Assembly: GCF_002494345.1 (NCBI RefSeq)
Contig: NZ_NXNI01000001.1
Location: forward strand, 2,790,001 to 2,854,000
Direction of reading: 5' to 3'
Origin: Natrinema ejinorense
Lineage (GTDB): Archaea > Halobacteriota > Halobacteria > Halobacteriales > Natrialbaceae
DNA length: 64,000 bases
Position numbers and translations under genes: made by a program. The notes below the pieces were generated by a model. The model did not search any database and had not been told where the DNA came from. It saw only the letters and a program-made list of their open reading frames with translations. Each line of letters begins with the position of its first letter. Within the stretch, counting starts at the first letter, position 1. Below are positions 14,998-18,378 of the stretch, piece by piece.

Positions 14998-16818
14998 TCA
15001 TAGCTGGTCCTCCGTGAGTGCGAACTGGCCGTTGTCGCCGCCGCTTGGCACCATCGGATAGACGTTGGCGTCGGGATCGATGTGGACGTCGATCACCGAG
15101 GGGCCGTCGTACGCGATGGCGTCGTCGATCGTCTCGGCGACATCGTCGTAATCGTCGATTCGGAAGCCACACGCGCCAAACGCCTCGGCGAGTTTGTCGA
15201 ACTCGGGCATCCAGCCGTAGTCCGACGCGGAGTGACGCCCGTCGAAGAAGGCGTCTTGCCACTGGCGGACCATGCCGATGTACTCGTTGTTGAGCACGGC
15301 GACCGTGATGTCGAGTTCCTCGCGGACGGCGACCGACAGTCCCTGCAGCGTCATCAGGAACGAGCCATCGCCGTCGATACAGACGACCTCCTGGTCGTCG
15401 TCGGCCGCGAGCCGCGCGCCGATCGCCGAGGGCAGTCCGTACCCCATCGCGCCGAGGCCGTGACTCGAGACCCAGGTCCGGGGCTCGGTGTACGTCCAGT
15501 ACTGACAGGCCCACATCTGGTGTTGGCCGACGCCGGTGGTGACGATCGCCCGGTCGCTCGTGGCCTCGTCGAGGGCCTCGACGACGAACTCCGGCTGGAC
15601 CGGCTTGTCCTCGGGCGCGTCGTAGGCCATCGAGTAGTCGGATTTCCACTGCTGGCACTGGGCGCGCCACTTCTTCGCTTCCGGCGAGGAATCGACGGCC
15701 TCGCTCAGCTGCTCGACGACGGTTTCGGCGTCGCCGATTAGCGGGTAGTCCGCGTGGATGTTCTTCGAGATCTCCGCCGGATCGATGTCGACGTGGATGA
15801 CCTTCGCGTCGGGCGCGAAGGTCTCGATGCCACCGGTCAGCCGGTCGTCGAACCGGGTACCGATCCCGATCAGCGTGTCACAGTGGGTGACCGCCATGTT
15901 CGCGTAGCCGGTGCCGTGCATGCCCGCCATCTCGAGGGACAGCTCGTGGTCTTCGGGGAACGCGCCGATGCCGGGCATCGTGGTGATGACCGGGATCTCG
16001 TGTTCGATGGCGAACTCGCGGCAGGCCTCGCTGGCCTCGCCCTTGATGACGCCACCGCCGAGCAGCATGACCGGACGAGCGCAGTTCTCGATCCGCTCGG
16101 CCGCCGCGTCGACGATCTCCGAATCCGCCCGCTCTTGCACCTGGTAGGTGTCCGGAACGGTCGGGGCGTCGGGCTCGCGGTCGGTCGCTCCCTTGGTGAT
16201 GTCTTTCGGCAGGTCGACCAGCGTCGGTCCCGGTCGGCCCTCGCGGGCGAGTGCGAACGCCTCGCTGACGTCGCTGCCGACGCGATCCGAATCGCTCGCG
16301 AACGTGTTGTCCTTCGTGACTGGCGTCGTGACGCCGGTGGTGTCGGTCTCCTGGAAGGCGTCGTTGCCGACGAACTCCGTCGGAACCTGCCCCGTAAGCG
16401 CGACCATCGGATCAGAGTCCATATCGGCGTCCGCGATGCCGGTGACCAGGTTGGTCGCACCCGGCCCCGACGTCGCCAGGCAGACGCCCGGCTCGCCGGA
16501 AACGATGCCGTAGGCGTCGGCCGCGTGGGCCGCGCCCTGTTCGTGGGCCATCGTCACGTGACGGATGTCCGAATCGTAGAGGGCGTCGTAGACGGGCATG
16601 ATCGCCCCGCCCTGGACGCCGAAGGCGTACTCGACGCCCGCGTTCTCGAGGGCGCGAACGACGGATTCGGCACCCGTCGTGACCGGCTCGGCCGTCGATC
16701 CGGAGTCGCCGCCTGCCGCGTCGTCCTCGGTGACCGCATCGGGCGCGGCGCTGTCGGTGATCTGATCGTCGTCCTGTTCGTCGTCCGCTGGCGTGACCTT
16801 TGCTGCGCGTTCGCTCAT
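14998..16818 (-). CDS. ilvB: Acetolactate synthase large (catalytic) subunit
   Basis: 606-aa thiamine-diphosphate enzyme condensing pyruvate with pyruvate or 2-oxobutyrate. The catalytic Glu region is MAHEQGAAHAADAYG, the FAD/central domain follows, and the TPP motif runs from GDGSFLMTLQG to NNEYIGMV. An acidic N-terminal extension of about 45 residues precedes the fold, a common halophilic feature. A GGGAG sequence lies about ten bases before the ATG. It is preceded by a 128-base leader region containing a hairpin and a short ORF described separately, suggesting amino acid control. Confidence 0.96.
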   Translation of the reverse strand: MSERAAKVTPADDEQDDDQITDSAAPDAVTEDDAAGGDSGSTAEPVTTGAESVVRALENAGVEYAFGVQGGAIMPVYDALYDSDIRHVTMAHEQGAAHAADAYGIVSGEPGVCLATSGPGATNLVTGIADADMDSDPMVALTGQVPTEFVGNDAFQETDTTGVTTPVTKDNTFASDSDRVGSDVSEAFALAREGRPGPTLVDLPKDITKGATDREPDAPTVPDTYQVQERADSEIVDAAAERIENCARPVMLLGGGVIKGEASEACREFAIEHEIPVITTMPGIGAFPEDHELSLEMAGMHGTGYANMAVTHCDTLIGIGTRFDDRLTGGIETFAPDAKVIHVDIDPAEISKNIHADYPLIGDAETVVEQLSEAVDSSPEAKKWRAQCQQWKSDYSMAYDAPEDKPVQPEFVVEALDEATSDRAIVTTGVGQHQMWACQYWTYTEPRTWVSSHGLGAMGYGLPSAIGARLAADDDQEVVCIDGDGSFLMTLQGLSVAVREELDITVAVLNNEYIGMVRQWQDAFFDGRHSASDYGWMPEFDKLAEAFGACGFRIDDYDDVAETIDDAIAYDGPSVIDVHIDPDANVYPMVPSGGDNGQFALTEDQL

Positions 16819-16941
16819 CTGTTGTCTCCCGCCGTTGTCTGGCGATCGAGTGGTGTACGGTAGTGTGGTGTCATCTGGTGGGGTGGTGATCGCTCGAAGA
16901 ACGATACGCCGTCGGGTCCGAAGCTACGAGGTACTAGAAAT

Positions 16942-16957
16942 GGGGCTACAGAGCCCC
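16942..16957 (-). promoter_or_regulatory. Perfect hairpin in the ilvB leader, containing the leader-ORF stop codon
   Basis: On the minus strand the sequence GGGGCT-CTGT-AGCCCC forms a 6-bp GC-rich stem with a 4-base loop. The last Ala and Leu codons and the TAG of the upstream 28-codon ORF fall in the left arm, loop and start of the right arm. The stem is followed by ATTTCTAG, only weakly T-rich. A translating ribosome reaching the stop would prevent the hairpin, so it is placed to sense leader translation. Whether it terminates transcription is not shown by sequence. Confidence 0.5.
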
Positions 16958-17032
16958 TACAATACGAATCGAAGCGAACGCGCTGGTGTCGACCGTGCGA
17001 ACGCGAGCCGACAGGGGAGCGCGGACCGTCAT
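16946..17032 (-). CDS. Candidate branched-chain leader peptide, 28 aa, upstream of ilvB
   Basis: Short ORF starting MTVRAPLSARVR and ending ASIRIVGAL, 127 bases before ilvB. The last seven residues are Ile-Arg-Ile-Val-Gly-Ala-Leu, that is all three amino acids made by the operon. They are encoded by ATT, CGT, ATT, GTA, GGG, GCT, CTG, while surrounding genes strongly prefer ATC and GTC/GTG. A TATA-like box lies about 30 bases before the ATG, so this ORF would be the first translated element of the ilvB transcript. An in-frame ATG ten codons upstream falls in that box and is unlikely. The arrangement parallels bacterial ilv leader peptides. Confidence 0.55.
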   Translation of the reverse strand: MTVRAPLSARVRTVDTSAFASIRIVGAL

Positions 17033-17058
17033 TACTGTATACGTAGTTCCGTCGAGGA

Positions 17059-17065
17059 TCATAAT
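17059..17065 (-). promoter_or_regulatory. TATA-like box for the ilvB leader transcript
   Basis: On the minus strand ATTATGA lies about 30 bases before the leader-ORF ATG at 17032, in a locally AT-rich spot between GC-rich stretches. It suggests a nearly leaderless transcript that begins with the leader ORF. Weak match, so only moderate support. Confidence 0.4.
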
Positions 17066-17144
17066 CCTTACGAGTCGCTCGAGCCCGATCGCTCGACCGC
17101 GATAGCCGGGGCTCGCCAACGGAGGCAAACGGGGAGGACATCCC

Positions 17145-18378
17145 TCAGGCGCGCACCTCCTCGTGGTCTTGCTGGCGTTCGACGCCAGCCTCCGTCGCGA
17201 AGCGCTCGAGGTCGTCGACGGTGACCCGGCGCTTCTCGGCCCCGTAGTCTTTGACGCGGCGGGTGACCGCTCGGACCTGCTCGTCGGTGGGTGCAAAGCC
17301 ACACTCGACGAGCCGTTCGCGGACCGAGTGGGTCCCGGTGTGTTTCCCCATGACCAGTCGGCGTTGTGCACCGACCATCTCGGGGGTCATGACGCCGGGT
17401 TCGAAGGTATCGGAGTTCTCGATGACGCCGGCGGCGTGGATGCCGCTCTCGTGGGAGAAGGCGTTGGCACCGACGACGGGCTTGTTGCCCGGCGTGTCCA
17501 TGCCGCTTTTCTCCTCGACGACGTTCGAGAGTTCGGTGATGCGTGTCGTGTCGATCCCCGTATCGGTCTGGTAGAGCGACTCGACGGCCATCACGTACTC
17601 CTCGTAGGCGGCGTTGCCGGCGCGTTCGCCGATCGAGTTGACCGACACCTGCGCCTGGGCCGCGCCGGCTTCGATGCCGGCCAGGGCGTTGGCGGTCGCC
17701 AGCCCGAAGTCGTCGTGGGTGTGGACGTCGACCTGTGCGTCGGTGTGGGCACAGACCTTCTCGATCATGGCCCGGAACCGGGTCGGCGTGGCGACGCCAC
17801 AGGTGTCGGGAATGTTGATCCAGTCGGTTCCCGCCTCGGTGACCGCTTCGATCACGTCGATCAGGAACTCCTCGTCGGTTCGGGTCGCATCCATCGGCGA
17901 GAACATGCAGGTCACGCCCGCGTCTTTGATGCGTTCGACCGACTCGACTGCGCGCTGTACGACTTCCTCCCGGGTGGCGTGCATCGAATCCTCGATCTGG
18001 ACGTCGCTGGTGGACACGAACGTATGCACCATCTCGACGCCGGAATCGAGTGCCGCTTCGATGTCCTTGTCGACGACGCGGGCTAACCCGCAGGTCGTCG
18101 AACTGGTTGCCGAAGCGATATCACGAACGGCCTCGAACTCGGCGTCCGAGTTGACGGGGAACCCGGCCTCGATGACGTGGGTTCCCATCTCGTCCAGGAT
18201 GGACGCGATCTGCCGTTTGTCGTCGTAAGAGAACGAAGTGCCGGGTGACTGCTCGCCGTCCCGGAGGGTCGTATCGAAGACACGTGCTGACTCTATTTCG
18301 TCAGTGGAATCTAACGTGCCCTGGAAGAACTCGACCCCCCTGATTGGTATCAGAGGATGGGCTGTCTTGTGAAGACAT
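17145..18378 (-). CDS. leuA: 2-isopropylmalate synthase (LeuA/CimA family), start separated by an apparent frameshift
   Basis: Claisen-condensing enzyme that opens leucine synthesis; the related citramalate synthase activity cannot be excluded. Catalytic motifs in one frame: VFDTTLRDGEQSPG, HTHDDFGLA, the GERAGNAAYEE loop and the HESGIHAAGV region. That frame has no ATG, GTG or TTG before the catalytic DTTLRDGEQ. The only good start is an ATG at 18378, 29 bases after a strong TATA box, but it is one base out of frame. Removing one G from the G6 tract (minus strand, 18335-18340) would join MSSQDSPSSDTNQG to VEFFQGTLDST and give about 410 aa. It lacks the C-terminal allosteric domain of long LeuA forms. 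Confidence 0.85.

Follow-up and report, generated by a model that had tools for sequence, protein, structure and literature searches.

Results

Organization of the ilvB locus

The window, i.e. the whole stretch of 64,000 nucleotides of Natrinema ejinorense DNA that was analyzed, carries on its minus strand a branched-chain amino-acid gene cluster in the order leuA, ilvB, ilvN, ilvC and a gene of the aconitase family, the latter being presumably leuC. The gap between leuA and ilvB contains a short open reading frame (ORF) preceded by a core promoter and overlapping a GC hairpin at its 3′ end. The features are as follows:

~18.3 kb down to 17145, minus strand: leuA, upstream member of the branched-chain amino-acid gene cluster
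17059..17069, minus strand: BRE/TATA core promoter of the leader (AA at 17069-17068, TTATGA at 17064-17059), recognized from the class-wide profile
16946..17032, minus strand: leaderless leader ORF of 28 codons, MTVRAPLSARVRTVDTSAFASIRIVGAL followed by a stop, with its ATG at 17032-17030, in the leuA-ilvB gap
16958..16969, minus strand: control codons ATT CGT ATT GTA (Ile-Arg-Ile-Val), from codon counts in 209 distinct leaders
16952..16957, minus strand: left arm of the hairpin, GGGGCT, overlapping the Gly-Ala codons (stem scan and fold; compensatory stems in loci L131 and L136)
16946..16948, minus strand: leader stop TAG, at the junction of loop and right arm of the hairpin (in-frame stop counts)
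16942..16947, minus strand: right arm of the hairpin, AGCCCC (sequence and fold)
16925..16941, minus strand: tail 3′ of the hairpin, ATTTCTAGTACCTCGTA, presumed termination zone (G-poor composition profile)
14998..16818, minus strand: ilvB, acetolactate synthase large subunit of 606 amino acids (Pfam TPP_enzyme N/M/C), presumed regulated gene

An earlier note on this DNA had proposed a ribosome-sensing attenuator at this site, and all of its coordinates were confirmed on the minus strand. Its description of the ORF was also borne out by the sequence: the 28 codons end with Ile-Arg-Ile-Val-Gly-Ala-Leu, and the stop codon is shared between the loop, where its T is found, and the right arm, which is opened by its AG. 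The two arms of this GGGGCT/AGCCCC hairpin pair perfectly, and ~125 nt separate the leader stop from the ilvB start (16818). A segment of 37 nt around the hairpin folds at −12.8 kcal/mol (z −2.5), while the full-length leader folds no better than shuffles (z −0.9), meaning that only the hairpin does so. Concerning the outer part of the stem in the window, the fold suggests that GUAUUG may instead pair with a CUAGUAC segment. Rfam covariance models gave no match at the element in the window or in six relatives.

Conservation in the class Halobacteria

The leader arrangement is kept across most of the class Halobacteria. An ATG at a fixed spacing from the promoter opens an ORF of ~20-40 codons that ends with [I/L/V]-x-Ile-Val-Gly-(Ala/Val)-(x)-stop. 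A GC hairpin takes its left arm from the codons for Val, Gly and Ala, and the stop, in frame, is found either in the loop of this hairpin or where the loop meets the right arm. As a strict pattern, TATTGTAGGGG-N(1-22)-CCCC was found in 249 of 394 Halobacteria genomes, compared with only a handful for the backwards control. Moreover, 80 loci were selected solely for encoding an ilvB relative and scanned over up to 700 nt upstream. The core [AG]TN-GTAGGGG occurs exactly once in 78 of them, and an in-frame stop invariably follows 4, 5 or (in one group) 9 codons further on, which refutes a chance origin of the motif. The two exceptions correspond to a truncated contig (L067) and to an Ile-Ile-Gly variant (L081). 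Elsewhere in the same loci, the core pattern was encountered five times in 0.6 Mb (counting both strands), and none of these five occurrences has a stop at codon 4 or 5. All counts are given without P values because related genomes are not independent.

Genomes devoid of the strict pattern mostly possess both the gene and a leader, as ilvB is present in 79 of 80 genomes sampled among them and the core motif in 69 of the 82 loci of this strict-pattern-negative set. Recognizable variants are found among the remaining loci (L131, L136, L139, L142, L148, L153, L167 and L174), paralogous second ilvB copies included, and only L166 and four loci of families f5 and f11 lack a leader motif among these 82 loci. 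Families f5 and f11 are the two most divergent ilvB families sampled (57-58% identity for ilvB). Beyond the class, none of 242 further genomes of the phylum contains the exact motif. The DNA upstream of ilvB in other classes was also scanned roughly, over the readable part of 24 loci, and revealed no similar leader. One weak candidate outside the class, located close to the ilvB start, is probably a chance match, and the match at L200 also looks fortuitous. Besides, a second copy of the leader, with promoter and hairpin, is found in L085 (G124:C2:397923) with no ilvB nearby and is probably the relic of a lost ilvB paralogue. A shallow look at loci of the genome that contains the window matching the anthranilate-synthase and IGPS families gave no convincing Trp leader.

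The earlier note had predicted that an attenuator would retain its I/V codons and its hairpin and little else, and this is what is seen class-wide: IVG[A/V], the in-frame loop stop, the stem, the GTA codon and the promoter-ATG spacing are kept, while the body of the ORF diverges. In 15 close relatives, the three codon positions of this body are equally variable, with no codon-position bias; therefore, the peptide is not the product. Although one could annotate the leader as a small protein, it is hardly credible that it encodes a conserved functional micropeptide or that the ORF is fortuitous and without regulatory function: chance is refuted by the single-copy motif, the body shows no codon-like conservation, conservation being restricted to the terminal codons and the hairpin, and in almost all loci retrieved the leader precedes ilvB.

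Promoter register and translation of the leader

Relative to the leader ATG, the class profile displays A at −37/−36 (69% and 80%) and T-T-A-T at −32 to −29 (74-88%). In the window, TTATGA is 27-32 nt upstream of the ATG; the TATA-like box at leaderless spacing previously noticed is therefore real, and its spacing is kept class-wide. The choice of the ATG for this profile made use of AT-richness. In a separate start test that ignored the frame, the best TATA-like site was taken and then the next ATG. In 195 of 200 distinct loci, this first ATG past the TATA box shares the frame of the Ile-Val-stop motif, one third being expected. A TATA-to-ATG distance of 32 nt, again measured without regard to frame, was obtained for 139 of these 200 loci. 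Because the BRE/TATA register is fixed relative to the ATG, we infer that the transcript starts at the ATG or within a few bases of it, as in leaderless haloarchaeal mRNAs.

The other end of the ORF is equally constrained. The first in-frame stop is found 4-5 codons after the Ile codon in 198 of 209 leaders, 6 codons after it in two and 9 in nine; TAG, TAA and TGA are all used, and the other two frames are almost without stops in this region. In nine loci (L015-L019, L024, L031, L033 and L034), the loop stop is lost and the hairpin is read through to a later TAG at codon 9, beyond the right arm (GAxSPHL-stop or GAPTPRL-stop). As judged from the sequence, with its promoter spacing and in-frame ATG, the leader qualifies as a short ORF ahead of a biosynthetic operon, and this ORF is in all likelihood translated.

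Ile and Val as control codons

End-product codons are enriched near the end of the leader, as expected for leader peptides. Ile, Val and Leu together account for 47% of the last 8 codons versus 16% earlier in the ORF, and Ile alone for 20% versus 1.6%. The central position (codon 0) is Ile in 203 of 209 distinct leaders (ATT 152, ATC 50, ATA 1), with four Val, one Met and one Leu among the others. It is followed by GTA in 206 of 209 leaders and by an Ile codon in the other three, and then by GGG, bearing in mind that the search pattern itself favors GTAGGGG. The rarity of the control codons claimed by the earlier note is confirmed in ilvB genes, where ATT represents 5.8% of Ile codons and GTA only 0.6% of Val codons; yet, a Val at the conserved position is encoded by GTA in 206 of 206 cases. 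GTA has its outer T-A stem pair in only 89 of 208 leaders and is nevertheless fixed, so that pairing alone is an insufficient explanation for its conservation. The Ile codon shows synonymous variation between ATT, ATC and ATA and also changes to Val, and GTA is swapped only for Ile codons. The inclusion of Leu among the control residues did not hold, unlike that of Ile and Val, which are conserved: Leu is not a conserved control codon, the final residue being L, F, S, V, A, N, Y, H or others.

In several leaders, Ile codons are multiplied while stop and hairpin are kept, as in GIIGIIGIIGAPQ-stop (L081, L148), SIIAIIAIIGVS-stop, AIRIRIVGAY-stop (L027) and IIAIIAIIGVS-stop (L153). Such changes bear on the idea of a nascent-chain arrest, in which the C-terminal IVG[A/V] would stall the ribosome at the stop in response to the free ligand, similarly to TnaC or SpeFL, rather than through uncharged tRNA. 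The near invariance of IVG[A/V] beside the stop is what such an arrest would require, but the expanded leaders GIIGIIGIIGAPQ-stop and IIAIIAIIGVS-stop alter the peptide while adding Ile codons, the residue after Ala is free, and Gly-GGG and Val-GTA are fixed at the nucleotide level, beyond the need of a peptide. We consequently view this mechanism as improbable. Translation-dependent sensing as such is strongly supported. A second type of leader was also observed, in which Ile replaces Val (IIGAPQ-stop or IIGVS-stop) with a hairpin like GGGGCTCCCCAGTAGCCCC (L081, L148, L153 and L174). It precedes copies of ilvB that, for at least L148, L153 and L174, come in addition to another ilvB of the same genome.

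A single hairpin followed by a G-poor tail

Stems located by script range from 5 to 11 bp and loops from 3 to 12 nt across leaders, the MAFFT alignment of the motif having left the loops ungapped. The inner (fifth) pair is C-G, U-A or U-G in 187 of 208 leaders. The arms are rewritten and yet complementary, in sequences and folds, in L131 (GTAGGGCC/GGCCCTAC) and L136 (CGGGCC/GGCCCG). Since TGTAGGGGC...GCCCCTACA is palindromic and its sequence strongly conserved, it could be considered as a DNA operator for a branched-chain-amino-acid repressor, the ORF being incidental. This reading is disfavored and we hold it for very improbable: the spacing between the arms varies from 3 to 12 nt, the loop nearly always contains an in-frame stop with three interchangeable stop codons, and the start ATG shares the frame of the motif. 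In addition, no second exact copy of the palindrome was found in the genome, and this single site offers no regulon.

Across the class, the hairpin is followed by a tail of ~17 nt that is nearly G-free and U-rich at +12 to +16, after which composition returns to normal. The G content is 4% at +1 to 15, compared with 32% in the ORF and 24% at +15 to 30; the window tail, with 2 G in 17, is hence not G-free. The RNA between the active site of the polymerase and its exit measures ~15-17 nt, which, together with the length of the tail, means that the hairpin would fully emerge as the U patch is copied. Termination as the attenuation step would agree with such a tail. In Haloferax volcanii, T stretches with TC are found at intergenic 3′ ends, and 59% of transcripts ended at a hairpin that had been cloned for testing, which makes a termination output plausible (PMC7237163). 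Only 43 of 208 tails have a run of at least 4 U; with so few U-runs, an intrinsic terminator would be out of the ordinary, and the polymerase may depend on a factor (aCPSF1/FttA) to terminate.

The same codon, stop and stem evidence would equally suit a ribosome-sensing leader with another output, in which hairpin and C/U-rich tail steer either the cleavage or decay of the mRNA, through aCPSF1 or a different RNase, or else how accessible the ilvB start is, a stalled ribosome shielding the RNA and a released one exposing it. The lack of strong U-runs in the tail is in keeping with this view, as is the termination by archaeal aCPSF1 via 3′-end cleavage (PMC7515710). However, the U peak at +12 to +16 fits a polymerase stop, and ilvB is at no fixed distance (~60-580 nt past the Ile codon), which speaks against the start-access variant. 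Altogether, we regard this other output as rather unlikely.

To return to attenuation, an antiterminator was sought by counting segments complementary to either arm in the ORF and the 90 nt downstream, with base-composition shuffles as expectation. No mutually exclusive structure was found in this region: complements are depleted about three- to four-fold (28 vs 87, 23 vs 71, 27 vs 113 and 4 vs 14 expected), so that nothing points to an antiterminator and the leader seems to avoid competing pairings.

Possible frameshift and lack of the allosteric domain in leuA

Further upstream, positions 18301-18378 of the window (minus strand; conserved block 18316-18336) are the site of a possible frameshift in leuA, whose translation appears to require a ribosomal shift by +1. 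Of 78 leuA loci (L002-L081 and the window), 71 have a leaderless ATG, with a TTTATATA box, whose reading frame differs from that of leuA. No stop interrupts this frame across the near-invariant block GGGGGTCGAGTTCTTCcAGGG in 73 of 75 cases, and a slip from CTT to TTC is conceivable. A start problem and a possible slippage were already raised for HVO_1510 (PMC8305020); the class-wide conservation may be new.

The allosteric domain LeuA_dimer is present in the upstream leuA of the two loci checked, L170 and L171 (families f5 and f11, with no ilvB leader), and absent from LeuA of the window (17145-18188). That families lacking the leader keep the domain while the window LeuA does not suggests, from very few data, that RNA-level control may have accompanied the loss of enzyme feedback.

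Discussion

The attenuator interpretation of the earlier note finds support in the comparison of loci, and we consider it probable that the ilvB operon is controlled by a ribosome-sensing attenuator with a single hairpin. With somewhat more reserve, we favor an ancient archaeal transcription attenuator composed of one hairpin with no alternative structure, in which a stalled ribosome masks the hairpin and the loop stop makes release the termination trigger. RNA polymerase would start at the leader ATG or within a few bases of it, and a ribosome loading on the leaderless 5′ end would trail the polymerase. When Ile and Val are plentiful, the final Ile-Val-Gly-Ala codons would be read and the ribosome would stop inside the hairpin, covering both arms, and leave. 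The hairpin, able to fold after this release, would then form close behind the polymerase copying the G-poor, U-ending tail; the archaeal machinery would carry out termination on ribosome release, and transcription would end before ilvB. When Ile-tRNA or Val-tRNA is uncharged, the ribosome would stall with those codons in its A site. With the A site at codon −1, 0 or +1, its leading edge should reach ~+9 to +15 from the Ile codon, assuming a typical footprint. By this geometry, it would cover GUAGGGGC and block the hairpin, and the polymerase would enter ilvB. In this logic, starvation would switch ilvB on through stalling and the absence of the hairpin, plenty would switch it off through release and hairpin formation, and a lack of translation would also leave it off. 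An antiterminator would be unnecessary, the ribosome being the sole competitor for the left arm.

Leader-peptide attenuation is commonly regarded as bacterial. The enterobacterial ilvGMEDA/ilvBN and leu attenuators combine long runs of I/V/L codons, an antiterminator and a stop ahead of the terminator. The haloarchaeal leader resembles them by a peptide rich in operon-product codons and a presumed coupling to transcription, but contains only 2-6 I/V codons and would act by direct occlusion. For archaea, no report of a ribosome-mediated attenuator was found among the open-access papers searched, a coverage that falls short of proving absence.

The nearest analogues are the ilvB attenuators of actinobacteria (Corynebacterium, Mycobacterium and Streptomyces), whose short ORFs contain Ile/Val/Leu codons and overlap with terminator hairpins (PMC1262725), GUA being among the control codons of ilvL (MTIIRLVVVTARRLP) in Corynebacterium glutamicum (PMC11857589). 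A short ORF upstream of ilvB with Ile/Val/Leu codons, its overlap with a candidate terminator hairpin and a GUA control codon are thus shared features. In contrast, actinobacterial terminators have poly-U, and C. glutamicum uses three alternative hairpins, whereas in the haloarchaeal leader the promoter is of the archaeal leaderless kind, the stop falls in the loop, and one hairpin stands alone without competing structures; no sequence homology is claimed. As for the hairpin terminators of H. volcanii, they likewise indicate that hairpins with T-stretch/TC tails can terminate in vivo, although they are located at 3′ ends or within genes and not in translation-controlled leaders (PMC7237163).

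If true, our proposal would mean that transcription-translation coupling serves gene control in archaea, on a leaderless mRNA and with a eukaryote-like polymerase. Besides, the leader would offer a simple assay of coupling and of factor-dependent termination in genetically tractable haloarchaea. Finally, it may explain how branched-chain amino acids are sensed in haloarchaea whose LeuA is devoid of the allosteric domain.
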